In this document: piece after piece, positions 1,503-28,959 of the stretch
Layout: every line of letters begins with the position of its first letter
How positions within the stretch are numbered: the first letter of the stretch is position 1
IMG/VR virus record: IMGVR_UViG_3300047169_000009
Location: 1 to 28,959 of that record
DNA from: a virus
Strand: one strand, 5' to 3'
Length of the DNA stretch: 28,959 nucleotides
The notes under the pieces: model-generated
Database searches by the model: none
Seen by the model: only the letters and a program-made list of their open reading frames with translations
What the model was told of the DNA's origin: nothing
Program-made: the position numbers and the translations under genes

Positions 1503-1794
1503 GTACGCTGGGAAATCACGGCAAGCCCCACCGGTCAATAAGCTACGGTGCCGATTCGAAGGATTGCCACGCCAATTCTTCGGCCGCATGGCCGCATTAC
1601 AAATCCCGCGCCGTATGGCGCCCATAGCCCAAATTCCAGCGACGCCTCGAACTCTGCCGAAGCCGACAGCGCCCAACTGCCGAATATTCACGCTGCAGTT
1701 TTCCCGTCCGTGGCAGTGACGACCGCGGGAGCGTCGACAAAACTGCCAGTCTGCCGCCATGACTGCCCAGGAATCTCCAATTGCGGGGGAGACG
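1503..1794. other. Intergenic region upstream of excisionase
   Basis: This stretch separates the T-shaped repeat from the excisionase start. The upstream extension of the integrase frame runs through it, but without a start supported by a ribosome binding site. Short recurring CTGCC elements at about 1676, 1743, 1750 and 1764 could be recombinase or Xis arm sites. This is weak evidence. Confidence 0.3.
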
Positions 1795-2229
1795 ATGAAT
1801 TCGACACCATTACAGCCGATAGGCCTGAATTCCCAGGAGGCTATGCGGTACCTAGGCGTGCGCAAGCGAACTTGGGACCGCCTTCGACGGCAACTGCGTT
1901 CGATTCGCCTCGGGACCTCCCGCCTATATGCCCGGGAGGATCTCGATCAGCTTTTTTCCAACCTACGGCAATCGGCTGTCGTCGAGGAAATCTACGTCGG
2001 CGTAGCGAACGTCACTCCTCCTGCGGGGGATACCGGATCGACCGAACAAGGAGCAAAATTCGCAGCGGACGGGCGACCCTCGCAACCACCGAAAGGAGAA
2101 AGAAAATGGGTCGTCAAAAAGGCGTCTACCAGGACGCCCACACCGGCCGTTGGCGGGTTGACCGATGCTTCAAGAATCATCGACTCCATCAAAGCTTTGA
2201 CAGCTTTGAAGAAGCCGAACGCTGGCTAA
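1795..2229 (+). CDS. Excisionase-like HTH protein
   Basis: The protein has 144 residues. Residues 10-58 form a winged-HTH of the excisionase/MerR-like type (HTH_17): LNSQEAMRYLGV, then a WDRLRRQ recognition segment, then a LGTSRLYAREDLDQLF wing and helix. The remainder is low-complexity, basic and proline-rich, without a recognised domain. The ATG at 1795 is preferred over the one at 1759 because GGGGGAG lies about five bases upstream. The last 124 bases overlap the integrase gene in another frame, so the two are probably translated from the same message. It probably acts as the directionality factor for the integrase; the exact role is inferred from position and fold. Confidence 0.72.
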   Translation: MNSTPLQPIGLNSQEAMRYLGVRKRTWDRLRRQLRSIRLGTSRLYAREDLDQLFSNLRQSAVVEEIYVGVANVTPPAGDTGSTEQGAKFAADGRPSQPPKGERKWVVKKASTRTPTPAVGGLTDASRIIDSIKALTALKKPNAG

Positions 2230-3362
2230 TAGCGAAGCTCGCCGATCTTCAGCGCCGCACGCACTTCGGGGAAAGACCTCGCATTACGTTCTCCGAAGCC
2301 ACACTGAAATACCTCGCAGCACCCGAGCAACAGGTCAAGGGTTCTTTGAAGACGGAGGGATATTTGCTCCAGAGTCTCGTGCCCTACATCGGCAGCCTGG
2401 AATTGGCCAAGATCCACGACGATTCGCTGGCGCCGTACATCACGGCGCGCAAGGCATTGGGTAGATCGCATAAGACGATCAACCTGGCCCTGGGAGTCGT
2501 GCGCCGGATCCTGCGCCTGGCCGCCTACAAGTGGCGCGACGACATTTCCGGCCAAACGTACCTCGAGTCAGCGCCGCTGATTACGTTGTTGCCCATTAAG
2601 GGCTACCAACGTGAACCGCGGCAACTGACTTGGGCGCAGCAGCGTAGGCTGCTGCCGCTTCTTCCTGACCACCTGGGCAAGATGGCGCTCTTCGTACTCA
2701 ATACCGGGGTACGCGACGACGTCGTCTGCAGCCTGCGCTGGTCCTGGGAGATCCGGCACCCGGATTTGGAGTTCTCGGTGTTTGAGGTGCCACCGGAGCA
2801 CGTCAAGGGCGGGCGCTACGAGAAGTCGCGCCAGTCTGTGCGGTATGTCGTGCTCAACACCGTCGCTCAGAGCCTAGTCGAAGCCGAGCGTGGCCGGCAT
2901 CCAGAATTCGTGTTCGTCTACCAGCACAATCGGGGACGATCCGGATCGCTGGGAAACTCAAGACCCGTCGGCTTCGTCCCGGTACCTCCGAAGCCCATTA
3001 CCGGGGGCATGCTCAATACAGGTTGGTTGCGGGCGTGCATGAAGGCCGGAGTTGCCGGCCTTCGCGTGCACGACCTGCGCCACACGGTAGGCATGCGGTT
3101 ACGCGAGGTCGGGGTTACGGAGAACACGATCGCCGATGTCCTCTGGCACTCCATCGGTCGCAATGTCACTAGACATTATTCGGCGGCACAGGTACGAGAG
3201 CTCCACGCGGCTTTGGAGCGCATCAAAACCGAAGCTGCGAAGGGTGCCAACAAGACGTTGCGGACACTGGCGGAAGAGTCTCGTGAGGCGAAGAAAACCG
3301 TGGATGTCACAAAAAGTCCCACCAAAGTCCACGGAAGGCGTAGTGAAAGAAAAAGGGCCTAG
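2106..3362 (+). CDS. int: Tyrosine recombinase / integrase
   Basis: The protein has 418 residues. An N-terminal arm-binding-like region (about 1-55) is followed by a core-binding SAM-like region (about 60-165) and the catalytic domain. Visible catalytic residues are Arg203 in NTGVRDD, a Lys in the VKGGRYEKSRQ turn (234 or 240), His322 and Arg325 in HDLRHT, His348 in LWHSIG, and the nucleophile Tyr358 in RHYSA. The usual Glu three residues after the first Arg is replaced by Val206. The start at 2106 has AAAGGAGAAAGAAA directly upstream; the longer open frame from 1548 does not. The stop lies within a terminator hairpin, and the tRNA-Arg fragment begins about 40 bases further on, so this enzyme very likely targets tRNA-Arg. 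Confidence 0.9.
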   Translation: MGRQKGVYQDAHTGRWRVDRCFKNHRLHQSFDSFEEAERWLIAKLADLQRRTHFGERPRITFSEATLKYLAAPEQQVKGSLKTEGYLLQSLVPYIGSLELAKIHDDSLAPYITARKALGRSHKTINLALGVVRRILRLAAYKWRDDISGQTYLESAPLITLLPIKGYQREPRQLTWAQQRRLLPLLPDHLGKMALFVLNTGVRDDVVCSLRWSWEIRHPDLEFSVFEVPPEHVKGGRYEKSRQSVRYVVLNTVAQSLVEAERGRHPEFVFVYQHNRGRSGSLGNSRPVGFVPVPPKPITGGMLNTGWLRACMKAGVAGLRVHDLRHTVGMRLREVGVTENTIADVLWHSIGRNVTRHYSAAQVRELHAALERIKTEAAKGANKTLRTLAEESREAKKTVDVTKSPTKVHGRRSERKRA

Positions 3363-20846: not shown

Positions 20847-22832
20847 TCAGCCCGGCTGGACCGTGACGTTGACGGTGCTGCCGCCTTCGAGGGAAATCAC
20901 GAACACCCGGACGATGGACAGGTAGGTGACCTTCACCAGCGTTTGCATGACGCCCAGCGCGACCTGCTGCTGCGGGTTGTTCGCAGCGTTCGTCTGGACC
21001 GAGAACGGCACCTGGGTAGGCGCGTTCGGGTTGCCGATGTAGCCGTTGACCAGCCAGAGGTTCGTCAGGAATCCGGTGATCGCGTCATTGACCTGCGCAC
21101 GCAGATTGGTCGTCTGCGGATTGCCGACGACCCAGCCGAAATTCGCGGCAAGCGTGAGGGCCAGGAAATTCGTCATTGCCGTGTAGCCCTCGGAATTCGT
21201 CGCGGCGTTGGACGACGTGTTCATGTCCGTCTGGAACGCGAAGTAGCTGCCGCCCGGAGAAGGATTGGCAAGGTAGTCCACACGCCCCTGCGTCGCAGCC
21301 AGTGCCTCTGCCGACGAATACGGCGCGCTCATCAGCGTGCGCTGCGTGCCGATGATCCCGTTCACGGGCTTGTTCAGCGTGGACTGGTTCGGCGTCAACT
21401 GGGCCCGGGTCGGCGCCCAGAAGGAAGCGGGGCCGAGCAGGCGCTGGACGTTGTTCAGCGTGTCCTGCCAGTAGACCCAGTCGCCCGCCAGGGCCTTGAA
21501 CGAGTAGTTATCCACGCCCGCGGCGGCCAGATTGGCGGCCACCGTCGCAATCGACTGTCCCGGAGCGCCCTGCCCTGCCCCGAAAATCCCGTAGGACTGG
21601 CAGAACGCCGCGATGGTGGACCACTGAGAAGACGTCTGGTGATCGACGAGGTTCAGCGTCAGCACGTTGGCGCTTTGCAGCGCGTACATGCCGGTCGGGC
21701 GAGAGCCGTTCGTACCGACCAAGGTGGCATCGGTCACGCCCGCGGCGCCGTCCGTGCCGCCACTGAACGTGTAGGTCGCCAATGCCGGAGTGGAAGCCGA
21801 TGAGCCTTGCAGGGCCACGACAAGCTGCGACGGGCCCCGCACACCGGACTGGCCGTTGTTGATGGCGTTGACCAGGTTGCCCCAGCATCCGGCACCCAGG
21901 GTGTACGCCCCGCCGGTTCCTGCGCCGCCAGTAAGCGTCGCGGTGGCCGAGGTGTAGCCAGAACCAGGATTCGTGATGATCGGCGTTCCCAAGCCCCATA
22001 CCAAGTTGATGAGGGCGCCCGTGCCGACCCCGCTGGTCGAAACCTGGGCTTGGGGATTGGTCGGAATTGACCCGCCGAGGATCGACCCGGCTTGGGTGAC
22101 GGTCAGAGCCGTGATGACGCCACTCGTTGCCGTGACCGTCAGAATGACGCCGTTTTGCAAGGTGATCGTGTCGCCGGTCACGAAACCGGTTCCACCGGAC
22201 GCGCCGCCGCCGCTGATGTTCGCCGAAATGGCCTTCAAGGTCGCCTGGATCGTTGCCTGCGTGCCGCCGGAGGTCTGGGGCGCGTTCACCGTCACGTTCG
22301 GGACCGACGTGTAGCCCGTGCCCGCCGTGGTTGTTCCGGGCACCACGCCGACACCGAGGTTGTCAAAGGTTTCCGCCAGAATGCCGGGCAGCGAAAGCTG
22401 GCACTTGTAGGTATTGGGCTTCGTGCCCGCCGCCATGGTCGCGGTGAGGGTGTTGCCCAGGATGCCGGTGTAAAAGGCGGTCAGCGTCGCGCCGATGGCC
22501 GCGGCGCCGTCAACCAGCGTGGAAACAGCGGACGTGTCCGTGCCGTCCGTGACCCGGACCACGGTGTTGTTCGTTTGCCCTAGCTGGAAGGCGATCGCAA
22601 CGGCGGTCGCAAGATCGCGCTGGCGCGCCGTCACCGGGCCCAGCGACATGGATGCGGCCTGCGGCGAACCGACGCCGAAGGGATTGTTGACCGGACCCCA
22701 GGATGCGACTCCGACCAGGCCAAGGCCGTTGGACGCCACGCCCTGGATGACAGGCGGCGGTTGCACGACCTCGACGTACAGACCAGGGGCCATCAGTCCC
22801 GCGAGGTTCAGTTGGTTCTGCTGGAAAATCAT
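20847..22832 (-). CDS. Tail sheath protein with inserted domain
   Basis: The protein has 661 residues. The N-terminus (LMAPGLYVEVVQPPPVIQG, then GLVGVASWGPVN) and the region from about residue 335 on (YSFKALAGDWVYWQDTLN, PVNGIIGTQRTLM and a C-terminal QVALGVMQTLVKVTYLSIV) match the contractile sheath. Residues about 162-310 are Thr/Ser/Gly-rich beta sequence with GTGYTSVPNVTV and GSGYTSATATLT repeats. This is an insertion that would sit on the sheath surface. The sheath is usually about 480-500 residues, so this excess matches the insertion. GGAGTGAG precedes the ATG at 22832. Confidence 0.88.
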   Translation of the reverse strand: MIFQQNQLNLAGLMAPGLYVEVVQPPPVIQGVASNGLGLVGVASWGPVNNPFGVGSPQAASMSLGPVTARQRDLATAVAIAFQLGQTNNTVVRVTDGTDTSAVSTLVDGAAAIGATLTAFYTGILGNTLTATMAAGTKPNTYKCQLSLPGILAETFDNLGVGVVPGTTTAGTGYTSVPNVTVNAPQTSGGTQATIQATLKAISANISGGGASGGTGFVTGDTITLQNGVILTVTATSGVITALTVTQAGSILGGSIPTNPQAQVSTSGVGTGALINLVWGLGTPIITNPGSGYTSATATLTGGAGTGGAYTLGAGCWGNLVNAINNGQSGVRGPSQLVVALQGSSASTPALATYTFSGGTDGAAGVTDATLVGTNGSRPTGMYALQSANVLTLNLVDHQTSSQWSTIAAFCQSYGIFGAGQGAPGQSIATVAANLAAAGVDNYSFKALAGDWVYWQDTLNNVQRLLGPASFWAPTRAQLTPNQSTLNKPVNGIIGTQRTLMSAPYSSAEALAATQGRVDYLANPSPGGSYFAFQTDMNTSSNAATNSEGYTAMTNFLALTLAANFGWVVGNPQTTNLRAQVNDAITGFLTNLWLVNGYIGNPNAPTQVPFSVQTNAANNPQQQVALGVMQTLVKVTYLSIVRVFVISLEGGSTVNVTVQPG

Positions 22833-22929: not shown

Positions 22930-24219
22930 TCAGAAGAAAAGGAAGAAATCTCCCGCGTTACCATTGCTCACCAGCGGCGCCACAGCGAAGGTGAAACCCT
23001 GGTATCCGCCTGTCGTAGTGGCACCAGCGGTCGGATTGATTGCCCCGGGCGCCGACTGTTGAACGTATTCAAGGAACGTCTTGTTCGCATTCCCGGTGGT
23101 GAGCGGAATTGCTGTCATTGCGTTCGGCGTCGTCCCTGCGGTCGGCTCTGCTCCGCCGCTCACGCCAATTTGCAGGGAAAAAACCAGGTCCGTCCCGGTC
23201 GTCGTCACTGATCCCGATGTCAGAACGTCCGTTCCCGTTCCAGACGACGCGATGAAGTTCTGCGCGGAACCATCGTATTGCGCGCCAGCTATGCCGATGG
23301 CAAAGTCGTAGTACATCGTCGAACCCGGCGCGGTCAGCGTTATGACGTGCGTTCCCGCAACGGCGCTATCCAACTTCCAAATCGCCGGATAGAGACCAGA
23401 ACTGCCAGGGTTTGAAGCCTGCTGCTCAAGCGTGAACGCGCCGCTCAGGTTCGACGACACCGAGGATGCTGGCGGACTCTGACCATCGGTATGAACGACG
23501 ATCACGCCAGTTGCCGGCATGACGATGGTGATGGATGCAGTCGAAGCACCCCCGGGGGAAACTTCAACCGGCGTGACGATCTGCATTCCATACGTCGGAT
23601 ACACGGAAAACGTAATGCCGATGATGTCGCCCGCAATCGTCTGCTGGCCCGTTGGATTGATCGCACCGGCTGTGGTTTGTTGAAAGTAGCCGTAGACAAC
23701 CGCGCCTGGTGCGACGCCCGAAGTGATCGCCGTGAAAGCATTCGGAGATGTGCCAACAGTCGGATTTGCAGATCCGCCTTGCGAGTTGAGAACCTCGAAC
23801 ACCAAAGCCGGCAGCGTCGTCGTTATCGAACCCGTGAGGAGCGCGTTCGCGCCCGTCCCCGCGCCGGCGCCATTATCGAAACTGGCCGATGGGCCGAGCC
23901 GCGAGTTCGTTACATACCACCCGCCGACGTAGCGAATGTTCGCGGCGCTGTTCGTGACGGTAATGACGTGCGTACCCGCCTGCGCATTGTCGAGCTGATA
24001 TAGGACGGTGTAGTCACCGAACGATCCGCCAGAGGTGCTTTGCTTCTGCGTCAGCGCGCCGCCGATGTTTGACGTTGCTCCTGTCGGCGGCGTCGTGTTG
24101 TTCTTCGTGATGACATGGATCGTCGAACCATTGCTAGGCACGACGACGGTGATTGGTGCCGAAGCAAGACCACCCGCAAGGTTTTCGACCAGAGTACCAA
24201 TGACCGGAAGCTGGCTCAT
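22930..24219 (-). CDS. Beta-rich structural protein with internal duplication
   Basis: The protein has 429 residues and consists of two homologous ~200-residue halves. The first opens with SAPITVVVPSNGSTIHVIT and the second with ASITIVMPATGVIVVHTDG. Both contain AGTHVIT, a SGSxTTTxxxLVF strand, GTxPNAxTAI, and AGAINPT before a GFTFxVxP-type ending. The composition (Thr, Ser, Gly, Val) and repeats suggest a virion surface or fibre protein. No catalytic motif was seen and no family recognised. It is coupled to the GH5 gene by ATGA and ends at the terminator before the sheath. Confidence 0.6.
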   Translation of the reverse strand: MSQLPVIGTLVENLAGGLASAPITVVVPSNGSTIHVITKNNTTPPTGATSNIGGALTQKQSTSGGSFGDYTVLYQLDNAQAGTHVITVTNSAANIRYVGGWYVTNSRLGPSASFDNGAGAGTGANALLTGSITTTLPALVFEVLNSQGGSANPTVGTSPNAFTAITSGVAPGAVVYGYFQQTTAGAINPTGQQTIAGDIIGITFSVYPTYGMQIVTPVEVSPGGASTASITIVMPATGVIVVHTDGQSPPASSVSSNLSGAFTLEQQASNPGSSGLYPAIWKLDSAVAGTHVITLTAPGSTMYYDFAIGIAGAQYDGSAQNFIASSGTGTDVLTSGSVTTTGTDLVFSLQIGVSGGAEPTAGTTPNAMTAIPLTTGNANKTFLEYVQQSAPGAINPTAGATTTGGYQGFTFAVAPLVSNGNAGDFFLFF

Positions 24220-26342
24220 GTGGCGTGGTTGCTCATCCAGTTAAACATGAACTGTCCGGCACCAGGCTGCGGAGTGTGATTTGCCTGAATGAGGCCGAAG
24301 TCCCATCCGTTCGCGTTGTACCAACCGCCATTTGGGTTATAGGAGAACGCCGACAGACTGACGCCGTTCGTGTCGCACCATGCGGTCAGCGCCGACAGCC
24401 ATGGCGCTCCGACAATTCCCGCGCCCGTGTGTTCGCCGGTTTCCGTGATGACGATGGGAACACCGGCGCCGCCGTTGAAAGTGTTCTTGAGCGTGACGAC
24501 CTGCGCCCAGGTGTCGTACGCCGGCCAATCTCCGGTACCAGAGTTGCCCGTGGTCGAGAACGTGAGATTGAACGTCGCCCCGGTTCCCGACCCCGTCGTG
24601 CTGTACTGGCCGACTGGCCCAGTGGGTTCCGTCAATTGCGAATACACGCCGCCAACCAAAGCACCGCTGTACGTCGTGCCGCCATACTCATTTTCGTTGC
24701 CACCGGATACACCAGGAGTCCCCGCCGTCCAACCAGCAAGTTGAACACCGGTAATCACACCCGCGCTGGTGGATGTCACTTGCAAAGCAGCCTGCCAGTA
24801 CACGCCGCCCGAACTCGGTCCGCCGCTCTCGTCCATCGGCAGCAAGATCATGTCGCCCAAAGAGTACGAGATCCCGCTGGTTGGTGCTGCGCCTTGTGCC
24901 GCAAATGTAAGTTGGGTTGCGGTGTTAGCGGTTACCGTTGCTTGGTACGTTACGCTGGAAACCGTGTAGATGACGATCTGCCCGACTTTGCTATTGACGG
25001 TCCATGATTGGGACGAGTCGTTCAAAGTCGTCGTTGTGCCAACCGATGTCGTCGTGCTGGTCAATCCGCTGTACCCGCTTCCCCCTGTCGCAACCGATAC
25101 CGCTGTGATCCGGCTTGCGGAAGGGTATGGGTGCCATGAAGCGCCAATGTTGGCCGTCCAGACACCGTAGGTACCAGCGTTCCAGCCGGTCGGAGCCGTC
25201 GTATCCGTGGGGGCGTAGGCGCCCCAAGAACCCAGATCCTTGTTGTAATTTAGTCCCGACAAAAGACATAGATTTCCTGCCCCCGTTGCACGGATCGCAG
25301 ATAGCATCTGCGCGTGGCCGGCCACGTACCAACCATACGTGCCGTTTGTAACGGTGACAGACGTTCCCGAGGTAGAACCAGTGATTACTGTACCGGTGGC
25401 AATGGTTCCACCCGTGACACTGAAAACGTCTATGTGTTGCGTACCAGACGAAGCAAGTCCAGTCGTTGTGTTCAGGTAGTAACAGAGAATTTTGCCGGTT
25501 ATGCCCGTCGGTGACGTTGTGGTAAATGTCTCGCCAGCTACGAAAGAACCCGTGCCGCCTGTAGGCGTCGTACAGAAATACGGCAACACAAACTGATAAC
25601 CACCACCGCTTGATTGCACGGTCGCATAGCTGCTGTTGTAGAGCCCGCCGTTCATCAGCAGGTTCCAGTTGCCAGCACTGTCCCCATAGGGTTCTGGCTC
25701 GTTGAACAACTCAAAGATGACCGAACGGTTATCAACCGTCCCACCGTTCATTTTCAACGCCGTGCCGTTGGGGTATCCGAATACGCTCGCCAGTGATTGC
25801 CAGCACTGAATGCTGTTGTCCTGGTTCGCCATGATGTCCTGCCCGAAAGGCGCGGAACGACCTGGATTGGTCCAGGCAAGAACCAGAATCACGTAACAGC
25901 CGATGGAGTTGTACTGCGCTACCTTGGCAATCAACTGGCTGCGGTATACGCCGTACGGGTCCGGGTTGACAACGGTGCCGTTGTTTTCGTTGACCGAGTA
26001 CCCCATCCAGGATGCTTCGTTGACACCGAGCCGGATGACATTTGGCTTCCACGCTTGCACGTAAGAAAGTGTTGGTCCGTTGGCAACATCGACGTTGTAA
26101 GTGCCGCCCGTGATGTCTCCTACGCCACCCTGATTCGCATTTCGGATGGAAGCCGATACCGTTCCTTCAATGTCGAAGCCGCGAAGCTGAATCGTCGTGC
26201 CGTGGCCGTTGACGAGGTTGCTGCCGTTCGCTAAAACCGATCCGTCGTATCCATGGACCGTGCCGCTTGTCGGCGGGTTGCCAAAACCTCCACCATACGA
26301 CGCCGCAAGCGCTGAGAGAAGAAGGTTGCTTTCGGCGTACAT
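24216..26342 (-). CDS. GH5-type glycoside hydrolase tail protein with inserted modules
   Basis: The protein has 708 residues. A (beta/alpha)8 glycoside hydrolase pattern of clan A is visible: IQLRGFDIEG (51-60), NVIRLGVNEASWMGY (101-115), then VIFELFNEPEPYG with the acid/base Glu215, a SWHPY segment (402-406), and VPIVITETGEHTG with the nucleophile Glu634 (GH5-like). Two beta-rich insertions, about 246-333 and 412-600, separate the catalytic residues. Both hold Ser/Thr/Gly-rich module sequence such as GGSGYSGLTSTT. A role in cutting a cell-surface polysaccharide such as cellulose or exopolysaccharide is likely. There is no signal peptide, which fits a virion component. It lies between fibre proteins in one transcript. 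Confidence 0.8.
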   Translation of the reverse strand: MYAESNLLLSALAASYGGGFGNPPTSGTVHGYDGSVLANGSNLVNGHGTTIQLRGFDIEGTVSASIRNANQGGVGDITGGTYNVDVANGPTLSYVQAWKPNVIRLGVNEASWMGYSVNENNGTVVNPDPYGVYRSQLIAKVAQYNSIGCYVILVLAWTNPGRSAPFGQDIMANQDNSIQCWQSLASVFGYPNGTALKMNGGTVDNRSVIFELFNEPEPYGDSAGNWNLLMNGGLYNSSYATVQSSGGGYQFVLPYFCTTPTGGTGSFVAGETFTTTSPTGITGKILCYYLNTTTGLASSGTQHIDVFSVTGGTIATGTVITGSTSGTSVTVTNGTYGWYVAGHAQMLSAIRATGAGNLCLLSGLNYNKDLGSWGAYAPTDTTAPTGWNAGTYGVWTANIGASWHPYPSASRITAVSVATGGSGYSGLTSTTTSVGTTTTLNDSSQSWTVNSKVGQIVIYTVSSVTYQATVTANTATQLTFAAQGAAPTSGISYSLGDMILLPMDESGGPSSGGVYWQAALQVTSTSAGVITGVQLAGWTAGTPGVSGGNENEYGGTTYSGALVGGVYSQLTEPTGPVGQYSTTGSGTGATFNLTFSTTGNSGTGDWPAYDTWAQVVTLKNTFNGGAGVPIVITETGEHTGAGIVGAPWLSALTAWCDTNGVSLSAFSYNPNGGWYNANGWDFGLIQANHTPQPGAGQFMFNWMSNHAT

Positions 26343-26344
26343 GC

Positions 26345-27379
26345 TCAGGCAACCGCGAGAGTGCGGAACTTGCTGGTAATAGCGTTGTACCTGGTACCAA
26401 TATCGACGGTTGCGCCGGATGCCACGCTTGTCGGGAAAGATATGGTGCTGTTTTCAAAACTTGACCCGGGTGTGACGCTAATTGTCGCCGATGCGATTAT
26501 TTGAATAACGAGCGGGTCGCGTGAGTTGGGCGTTCCTGTGAGCGTAAAACCGGTGATGTTAGTCGTTTGCCCAGAAACTATGACCGTGTTGAACTGGTCG
26601 GTGTTGATCGGGATGTTGGGCGCGTTGCCGGCGTACGTGAAGACGCGCTCCTTGATCCGCGTGTTGCTGATGAATGTGTTCTGGATGCCGCCGCCGCCGA
26701 CCAGGGTCCAAAGCGTCGTTACCGGGTTGTATTGCAGGACGTAGGTGCTGCGCGCCGTGCCGAAGGTCGTCGGCAGCGAGCAGTTGCCTGGCTCGACCTG
26801 GGCGCCGAGGGCGATCGCGATATTTGCCGCTGTACCGGTGAGGTTGATGATCAGCGGCTGGCCTGCGGTCGGCGTGCCAGTGATCGTGAGTCCGGTGATC
26901 GGTGTCGTCTGGGCCTCGATTTCCAGCACGTCGATCGCGTCGCTGTTGATCGAGTAAGTTGCCGTGTTGGCGTTCGTCGTGACCTCGCGGGGTTTCGTGC
27001 CGGCCAACGTCGCCGAGGCGCCCGGTAGGGTGTAATTGGCCGCCGCGGTGCCGGCAAGACCCCATCCAGCCGCAACCAGGTCGCCCCCTCCATTGCCGAT
27101 GACAGGCTGCCCTGCGGTGAGGACGCCTTCAAGGTGCGTGACCGTTCCAGAACCACCGCCGCCGAGGGAAAGCCCCGGGGGCGACACCACCGCCAAGGTC
27201 TGCAGGTTGACCAGAATAGGCCCGACTTGTGCCGGAACAGCGGGCGTCTGACCGACTGAAATTGCGGCTATGCCCTGCGCAATTAGAGCGCGGCCGAGCG
27301 CATCTTGGACAGTGGCAATCGCACCCACCCCTACCGGTACGCCGTTCAGGTCGTACGGTTGCAGGAAGGTCACGTCCAT
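26345..27379 (-). CDS. Tail fibre-like protein with two beta repeats
   Basis: The protein has 344 residues. The N-terminal ~80 residues contain ATVQDALGRALIAQGIA, shared with the tailspike upstream of it. Two related beta repeats follow: one around TTPITGLTITGTPTAGQPLII and one around TTNITGFTLTGTPNSRDPLVI. Each ends with a STYVLQYNPVTTLW- or TRYNAITSKFRT-type strand. Such repeats form fibre shafts or distal domains in phage structural proteins. AAGGACC precedes ATG 27379. No enzyme motif was found. Confidence 0.6.
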   Translation of the reverse strand: MDVTFLQPYDLNGVPVGVGAIATVQDALGRALIAQGIAAISVGQTPAVPAQVGPILVNLQTLAVVSPPGLSLGGGGSGTVTHLEGVLTAGQPVIGNGGGDLVAAGWGLAGTAAANYTLPGASATLAGTKPREVTTNANTATYSINSDAIDVLEIEAQTTPITGLTITGTPTAGQPLIINLTGTAANIAIALGAQVEPGNCSLPTTFGTARSTYVLQYNPVTTLWTLVGGGGIQNTFISNTRIKERVFTYAGNAPNIPINTDQFNTVIVSGQTTNITGFTLTGTPNSRDPLVIQIIASATISVTPGSSFENSTISFPTSVASGATVDIGTRYNAITSKFRTLAVA

Positions 27380-27394: not shown

Positions 27395-28959
27395 TTACGG
27401 TGTAGCGTTCGTGCCGCCGTGCGCCGAAATGAACGTCGCAAAGCTGTGCTGGTAGGCCGAGTAATGCGACCAAGCGTTCAGCGTTCCGGTCAGCGTTGGA
27501 TCGACGGTGCAGTTGGAATGCCCAGCGACCAAACCCATGTTCCCGGTTGCGGCGAACAGCGGGTAGTTGCCGAGTGCCGCAAAGAAATTGAGATCCAGAC
27601 AAGTCGATGTCGTGCTGTTGTCGAACTTCAGGAACGCGCCTGTGTTCGTGTTCGTCGGGTTGTTGACGTTCAGCGACGATGAAAGGATGTCCACCATCAT
27701 CGGCTGATTGTTCGTCCCCTTGAAATACAAGGGGTAGAACGAAGCGAAGAACCCGTTCACCGTCACGTTGCTCACGGCCGAGCTGGCTGACAGGTTGTAG
27801 GTGCCCGCGCCGCCGGTACCGGTGCCCAGCGAAGTGATCGTCGTTCCCGCGGTGACGCCCGTGCCGCTTATGGTCTGCCCTACCATGAAAGTGCCGCTCA
27901 GGCCAGCCGGCACTGTCAAAACCGTGCCGCTGATCGAGCATCCAGGCGCGGTCGCAACCGCCGTCTGGTTCTCCACGCGCAAACCCGTCGCCCGAAAGCA
28001 CGTCACAACCGAGCTTGGTGACGACACCCGGATGCAGCAGTTGTCACTGTTGCCGCCGTTCACCGTAGCGCAGTACGTGCCGACCAGCAAGATGTCCAGG
28101 CCAGGATAAAAGTCCAGGGACAGGGCGCCGACCAGCCAAGTGTCAGTGACCGTGTAGAGCGTTTGGTTCCCGGTTCCGGAAGGAATCGACTGATATGCGC
28201 TGGTCACTCCGGTCGGCAGAGTGACCCCACAAATCAGCGCCGTGCAATACGGCGCGCTGAAATAGCATCCCTTGATCGAACAGAGGTCGCTATTGAAAAT
28301 GACGCAGGCACCTATAGCACCGGTGTTCTGTATCTCGACGTTGACCTTCTCGACGATCGCATTGAAATTGTTCGTGCTGGCTTGGTTGCTGGACAGCAAG
28401 ATCCCGCAAGTCGCGTTCCCCGTGTAGCTGCGGATACTCAAATCCTCGCACCGCGCGAAATTGGCCCCGCTGAAATCGACAACCGGATACGCGCCGGTCA
28501 TGCTCGCATTGATGATCGTCGAAAGGCGACCGTCACCGACAAGCGCCACTGTGACGCCGAACGTGCTTGCCGTGCAATCCAGGCCGTTGCCAGTGACCTT
28601 GTAGACGCCGGATGGCAAATGCACGGCGGGGTAGTACGACGGTGCGTTCCGGGCCGCGTTGATGGCCTTCTGGATCGCTGCCGTGCTGTCGGCTACCCCG
28701 GTGGGATCGGCGCCGTAGTCAAGTGCGTTGATGGCGGCGATTCGTGAAGGCAACCACGGAGCCGTCAAAGAAGCCAGGGGGCTCAGAACAGCATTCGTGT
28801 TCGGGTTGTAAAGGATCGGCAGCGAAGGCACTGCGATTTGAACGTTGGCGCTTTGGCTTCCGGCTTTTGCAATCCCCTGGCTTATAAGTGCGACGCCGAG
28901 GGAATCTTGAACCGTGGCTGTGGAACCCGCGGCGAGAATTTCACTGCCCAGAAGGTAGG
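27395..28959 (-). CDS. Pectate-lyase-fold tailspike, N-terminus beyond right edge
   Basis: The frame continues past 28831 with no start or stop to the right edge, so the true N-terminus is outside. Visible residues begin with a segment containing [17 protein letters not shown]. The block [27 protein letters not shown] is the standard opening of the parallel beta-helix Pectate_lyase_3 family, seen in many tailspikes. A beta module with [11 protein letters not shown] to [11 protein letters not shown] (about 27750-27945) is inserted in the C-terminal part. The fold suggests binding or depolymerising surface polysaccharide. Catalytic residues are not identifiable by eye. Confidence 0.8.

Follow-up and report, generated by a model that had tools for sequence, protein, structure and literature searches.

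A GH5-fold protein with a nested insert encoded in the tail operon of a temperate contractile-tailed phage

A GH5 barrel divided by two inserts

The 28,959-nucleotide virus record IMGVR_UViG_3300047169_000009, analysed over its full length and referred to here as the window, represents part of the genome of a temperate phage with a contractile tail, its genes including an integrase at 1548–3362, an exonuclease, baseplate hub and J, tape measure and sheath. One gene of its tail operon, an open reading frame (ORF) on the minus strand with its ATG at 26342, encodes P0001, a protein that belongs to glycoside hydrolase family 5 (GH5) by sequence and fold, without a claim to canonical GH5 activity. 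Its GH5 domain is split by two inserts, the second of which is a module within a module. P0001 probably serves this phage as a tail-associated glycan depolymerase with a GH5 fold.

Intact P0001 scores 23.5 bits against Pfam PF00150, which is exactly the curated cut-off, and aligns over residues 88–222 only. Excision of residues 241–335 and 411–600 (394 residues left, counted from residue 30) gave 38.9 bits and a match spanning profile positions 22–271 of 272. As excision restores a near-full PF00150 profile, P0001 is one GH5 domain cut in three. An earlier annotation made from the letters of the window (the sequence-only reading) had proposed a GH5 catalytic domain on a tail protein, and the profile comparison supports this family assignment. 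Among relatives, P0002 scored 29.3 bits against the same profile, and the intact L208 (= L182) had no Pfam match. P0001 itself had no match in PHROGs or NCBIfam.

An AlphaFold2 (AF2) model from an 84-row alignment, built from sequences of the window and of fetched loci, had a mean predicted local distance difference test score (pLDDT) of 83.5 and a predicted template modelling score (pTM) of 0.83, whereas a model from a 2-row alignment was useless (pLDDT 29.9). Local confidence exceeded 90 in most core blocks, was mostly 80–96 in insert 1 and ranged from 48 to 92 in insert 2. The predicted strands at residues 54–58, 102–108, 150–157, 208–211, 359–361, 399–403, 630–632 and 662–665 are the eight of a barrel, with Glu215 following strand 208–211 and Glu634 following strand 630–632. 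Insert 1 falls between beta-4 and alpha-4, and insert 2 between beta-6 (399–403) and alpha-6 (609–625). The top matches in the PDB (Foldseek, VIA-align) were all GH5 endo-beta-1,4-glucanases: CjCel5C (8bn7) aligned to the model with a Z score of 30.1 and a root-mean-square deviation of 3.0 over 287 of its 334 residues, and 4hty (29.8), E1 (29.6) and SdGluc5_26A (5a8m, ~29.4) scored similarly, with mannanases slightly lower at ~27. A sequence-profile search agreed in ranking 4hty, 5a8m and 8bn7 first, and the nearest solved structures by profile and fold, 4hty (Cel5A), SdGluc5_26A and CjCel5C, are only ~20% identical to P0001. A TIM barrel, on which the sequence-only reading had staked its proposal, is thus predicted, and the fold matches suggest that the two glutamates would stand as far apart in space as in GH5.

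Along the chain the glutamates are 419 residues apart (215 to 634), in agreement with the earlier estimate of about 420; the NEP motif occupies residues 214–216 and ITETG residues 632–636. Of the features expected of GH5, P0001 has the (beta/alpha)8 barrel, the Glu in NEP after beta-4, the Glu after beta-7, and R104, N214, H404 and Y406. It lacks the beta-3 His and the beta-8 Trp (Ala156 and Phe666 instead), which are highly conserved in characterised GH5 enzymes and lie outside the sequence-based definition of the family, which admits modules without catalytic residues.

Insert modules and their order of acquisition among relatives

Both inserts are beta-rich as well as rich in Thr, Ser and Gly. 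The sequence-only reading had placed two modules after beta-4 and after the HPY strand; both sites were correct, and the second insert is now resolved into an outer GY module (GGSGY...GTGATFNLTF) that an inner SW module splits between GSG and Y-x-GD. Two further short insertions of ~14 residues lie at 190–203 and 383–396. Homology of the module at the first site (I1) was supported by shuffle tests of P0001 against L063 (Z 9.0), L208 (8.2) and L210 (12.0), and that of SW against L059 (6.2) and L208 (7.6). For GY without its end motif, Z was 27 against L213 and 4.2 against L059.

In other phages, the GY module is also embedded in tail proteins of PHROG 394 and in a tail sheath of PHROG 23. The GY loci L151–L207 were preselected by a 10-residue motif, so that their E-values, including the 3e-14 at which the GY profile matches the L172 sheath, are inflated; with this motif removed, shuffle Z scores were 5.1 against L154, 2.7 against the L172 sheath and 0.9 against L191. 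A 370-aa phage ORF at L205:12111-13220 holds three GY-like modules in tandem.

A first scan with P0001 returned a single close relative, P0002 on L002, at 84% identity, and a scan with the 2-row alignment likewise returned only L002. DNA patterns for [VI]F[ED]L[FY]NEP and GTGATFNLTF opened the family: the former hit 36 viral stretches, with ~17 clear relatives, and alignment scans added further viral loci together with 319 bacterial loci, the best 80 of which were kept. Altogether ~40 viral contigs with a GH5 of the P0001 type were collected. GH5 on phages is thus not very rare, and the earlier statement that GH5 enzymes are uncommon as phage tail proteins was too strong. Annotated phages gave no tblastn match to P0001, to its core, to its inserts or to a relative that lacks inserts, and plasmids gave none to P0001.

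Almost all relatives lack both inserts, and those that carry them form a graded series. L063 has insert 1 only; L209, L210 and L213 add to it an intact GY module at the second site; P0001, P0002 and L208 have insert 1 and a GY module with SW nested between GSG and Y-x-GD. Two further members are truncated, L211 ending at the contig edge inside GY and L212 ending before it. More distant relatives at ~45–50% identity retain both inserts, and the nested layout is the same at 47% identity. In a core-column tree from which the inserts had been removed (FastTree), all insert-bearing proteins grouped with a support of 0.977, the eight I1-bearing P0001-like proteins with 1.0, and the SW-nested ones plus the truncated L212 with 0.97. 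The relatives thus include natural intermediates (no insert, I1 only, I1 with GY, I1 with GY and nested SW), from whose sequences an order of acquisition is implied. The ratio of nonsynonymous to synonymous substitution rates (dN/dS) between P0001 and P0002 was ~0.06 and similar in core and inserts, a rough figure since dS is near saturation. Reading P0001 as an ORF that is decaying or arose by chance, with inserts of low complexity, would fit the Thr/Ser/Gly-rich composition and the marginal Pfam score of the intact protein, but is refuted by this selection on core and inserts, by the conservation of the nested layout and by the confident AF2 model.

The same two loops hold other modules in a 1163-aa phage protein at L059:5338-8826 (identical stretch in L066), in which N-terminal Fn3 domains precede the GH5 domain. 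Its beta4-alpha4 loop carries SW and a long stretch with an SGNH-like domain at its end (a sub-cut-off Pfam match to Lipase_GDSL_2 at 1.1e-5, with the motifs GDS, GTND and DPIHPS seen by eye), and its beta6-alpha6 loop carries GY. In L061, L225 and L229, GH5 is followed by a tandem SGNH/GDSL-like domain, recognised in L061 by a Pfam match below cut-off and in the other two by eye; these tandem domains suggest acetylated substrates.

Predicted function and alternatives

If P0001 acts as a depolymerase, the barrel, with Glu215 as acid/base and Glu634 as nucleophile, would probably cut a beta-linked polysaccharide of the host surface by the retaining mechanism of GH5, and this cutting may allow the virion to reach the cell envelope. 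The two beta-rich inserts are predicted to sit in the beta4-alpha4 and beta6-alpha6 loops, on the barrel face that bears the active site. A role in shaping or extending substrate binding is probable, by analogy with the carbohydrate-binding module (CBM) inserted near the beta6-alpha6 loop of MtGlu5. It is accordingly plausible that the inserts steer substrate binding, as the earlier reading had supposed. The second insert is nested, its GY module, which is also known from inside other phage virion proteins, having itself been entered by SW.

Parts of this reading have precedents. Erwinia phage S6 (Schitoviridae) encodes a GH5 cellulase, gp095, and uses host cellulose as its first receptor (PMC9544554), which is a direct precedent for the depolymerase idea of the sequence-only reading. 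P0001 resembles gp095 in being a phage-encoded GH5 and, as expected of a virion-borne depolymerase of that type, is encoded among virion tail genes; S6 exploits host exopolysaccharide (EPS), and its cellulase is experimentally verified. Unlike gp095, which has no large insert, P0001 carries two, one of them nested, lacks the beta-3 His, and has a depolymerase role that is predicted. MtGlu5, a GH5_25 endoglucanase of Meiothermus taiwanensis, contains an inserted CBM29-like module whose deletion lowers catalytic efficiency (PMC9063844); insert 2 of P0001 is likewise beta-rich and placed between the beta6-alpha6 loop and helix alpha-6. MtGlu5 is, however, a cellular enzyme with one insert and canonical activity, whereas in P0001 two sites are occupied and the nested module belongs to no recognised family. 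A plant GH5 with a single inserted module shows, as P0001 does, that the barrel tolerates whole modules, although in a different loop. Phage GH5 cellulases with a cellulose receptor, active viral GH5 enzymes and single modules inserted in GH5 are therefore already known; paired insertion sites, a nested module with its intermediates, an esterase-like swap, a conserved change at the -1 subsite and a companion gene appear to be new, as far as we found in the open-access literature.

Residues R104, N214, E215, H404, Y406 and E634 are kept in every aligned row that covers them. The catalytic Glu pair is thus conserved under purifying selection, which still argues for an enzyme. The end of beta-3, by contrast, carries His (DxH) in 61 of 64 other rows and V/T-L-A/G in all eight members of the P0001 clade, and the beta-8 Trp, present in 59 of the 64, is Phe or Tyr in all six clade members that cover it. 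Residue H225 of TfCel5A forms a hydrogen bond with O3 of the -1 sugar, and its replacement by Ala (H225A) costs 88.5% of the activity (PMC10583438); the equivalence of H225 to Ala156 is drawn from the family alignment and from the position at the end of beta-3, not from residue-level superposition. Judged from the sequences, the best reading is that the -1 subsite has been remodelled in this clade with the catalytic glutamates retained. That the clade has lost the beta-3 His in a coordinated way, while strong selection preserves its catalytic Glu residues, suggests a substrate specificity or mechanism not yet explored.

The position of the gene is consistent with a tail protein. The operon runs spike, PHROG 3030 gene, GH5, companion, sheath, tape measure and baseplate; P0001 starts 2 nt beyond the stop of the upstream gene, and a 4-nt overlap (ATGA) joins its stop to the start of the following gene. 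Elsewhere, GH5 relatives adjoin tail-fibre or head-closure genes. The fold, the Glu positions and the contractile-tail operon thus agree with a GH5 domain on a tail protein, while presence in the virion is suggested only by gene position; the short N-terminus of P0001 may be an attachment end. For sheath and baseplate J, the closest named phages are phiKX1 and phiKX2 of Komagataeibacter xylinus, at ~38–39% identity (PMC8566455). These phages and three prophage regions in two genomes have a tail operon collinear with that of the window. At this level of ~40% identity, the matches only hint at a host among the acetic acid bacteria or their relatives.

Several observations weigh against a depolymerase. 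Both -1 subsite positions described above are altered, and the activity lost by the TfCel5A His-to-Ala mutant cautions against assuming canonical cellulase activity. The inserts had no match among Pfam or PHROG families, and no virion-anchoring domain was recognised in P0001. Furthermore, GH5 was not detected in the examined stretches of the related prophages and of phiKX1/phiKX2, where the tail operon is kept, so that the cassette looks accessory. Cellulose, which the earlier reading had named as a possible target, is unproven given the altered clade residues, and BcsB is missing from both of the genomes checked that carry related prophages. The idea of a cellulose-producing bacterial host is unsupported by this BcsB test.

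A refinement of the depolymerase reading, which we regard as possible though unlikely, is a switch of substrate: loss of the His that contacts O3 may admit an O3-substituted, i.e., branched or acetylated, backbone, for instance an acetan- or xanthan-type EPS. Acetan is an EPS of the Komagataeibacter group. This proposal draws on the O3 contact made by H225 in TfCel5A, on the host of the named phages closest in their tail genes, and on the SGNH-like domains that accompany related GH5s, in tandem (L061) or nested (L059), with further by-eye candidates in L225 and L229. Substrate is, however, not readable from sequence, the Komagataeibacter match is distant and the BcsB result stands, and the SGNH matches remain below the Pfam cut-off even though the S, N and D..H motifs can be made out by eye. 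A broader and equally tentative proposal holds that this GH5 lineage uses the beta-4 and beta-6 loops as insertion ports for interchangeable, nestable modules (I1, GY, SW and an SGNH-type esterase-like one) and has a rebuilt -1 subsite (DxH loss), and that it would cut O3-branched or acetylated EPS of the beta-1,4-glucan type rather than plain cellulose or mannan, and would work together with a companion protein dedicated to it, the product of the next gene.

Somewhat less probable still is that P0001 is a catalytically weak or dead GH5 that serves as a lectin-like protein for receptor binding; its barrel and inserts would bind a host glycan and leave it uncut. All eight clade members have lost both the D and the His of beta-3 (V/T154, A/G156), the beta-8 Trp is replaced as described, and non-catalytic GH5s do exist, one of which binds cellulose as a sensor (GH5_30; Rsi24C-GH5; PMC3526467). 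A pure binder, however, need not keep both catalytic Glu residues together with Asn214, Arg104, His404 and Tyr406 invariant wherever they are covered, nor show so low a dN/dS.

We consider it improbable that P0001 is an auxiliary metabolic enzyme, freed at lysis or made by the lysogen, that degrades plant or soil polysaccharide. Such a role has been assigned to the GH5 endomannanase of a viral contig from peat-bog soil at Stordalen Mire, which was shown to be active on plant mannans and read as auxiliary for their breakdown (PMC6786970); P0001 shares with it the presence of a GH5 on a viral contig and differs in this reading of its role. Some relatives (L016, L027 and L017) begin with an apparent signal peptide, as judged by eye. 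In contrast, the N-termini of P0001, P0002 and L208–L213 are short and show no evident signal peptide when judged by eye (no predictor run), the gene lies within the tail operon, joined to its neighbours by 2- to 4-nt junctions, and one of the P0001 modules occurs inside the tail sheath and tail proteins of other phages.

The relatives provide a stepwise natural record of barrel decoration in phages, from no insert through one and two to a module in a module. With the outer GY module also present in tail sheath and tail proteins, the gain of specificity by sugar-cutting phage enzymes becomes testable. A possible use lies in finding enzymes against branched or acetylated bacterial exopolysaccharides.

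Neighbouring genes

Table 1 Features of the P0001 gene and its neighbours in the window
Feature	Coordinates	Strand	Basis or remarks
GH5-fold protein P0001, whole gene	24216..26342	minus	708 aa; two loop inserts, second nested
P0001 residues 1-30, short N-terminus	26253..26342	minus	low confidence, pLDDT <50 at residues 1-26
GH5 segment A, residues 31-232 (beta-1 to beta-4; ends past NEP motif)	25647..26252	minus	Pfam, alignment, AF2
Ala156, end of beta-3 (VLA; GH5 elsewhere: conserved His in DxH)	25875..25877	minus	family alignment
Glu215, predicted acid/base (NEP, after beta-4)	25698..25700	minus	motif, alignment
Insert 1 (I1 module), residues ~233-336, beta4-alpha4 loop	25335..25646	minus	alignment, AF2; homologues at same site in L063, L208, L210
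GH5 segment B, residues 337-408 (alpha-4, beta-5, beta-6; ends WHPYP, His404, Tyr406)	25119..25334	minus	alignment, AF2
Insert 2, residues ~409-605, beta6-alpha6 loop: GY module with inner SW module	24528..25118	minus	alignment, AF2
Inner SW module, residues ~424-493, nested in GY module	24864..25073	minus	missing from L209, L210, L211, L213
GH5 segment C, residues 606-708 (alpha-6, beta-7, beta-8)	24219..24527	minus	excision test, alignment, AF2
Glu634, predicted nucleophile (ITETG, after beta-7)	24441..24443	minus	motif, alignment
Tail-spike-like gene (PF12708 pectate-lyase-like)	27395..28957	minus	upstream; runs off contig end
PHROG 3030 gene, unknown function	26345..27379	minus	344 aa; upstream; stop 2 nt before GH5 start
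Companion gene	22930..24219	minus	429 aa; two 41%-identical copies of ~205-aa domain; 4-nt overlap with GH5 stop
Tail sheath (PHROG 23)	20847..22832	minus	661 aa; next but one downstream; carries inserted module

The ~205-aa domain of the companion gene had no Pfam or PHROG match. An iterated profile, which is suggestive and no census because it was iterated on GH5-centred loci, found this domain in a gene beside GH5 in L208, L209, L213, L008 and L028, and fused in front of GH5 in L055/L004 and L234/L006. The profile detected no copy in the bacterial GH5 loci (best 80 of 319), in the other GY-module loci, or beside GH5 in L210 and L002. In L028/L236 and L008/L235, which hold more distant phage GH5s, the companion-domain gene lies directly downstream.

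The window sheath is longer than that of phiKX1 (497 aa), with its insertion at the same place as in the GY-bearing L172 sheath. The window and L172 sheaths are related in the shuffle test (Z 18.6); direct comparison of GY with the window sheath was not significant (Z 0.6), and the link goes via L172. Finally, the two genes upstream of P0001 have a common N-terminal motif, TVQDxLGxALIxQGIA, which is perhaps a common attachment segment.

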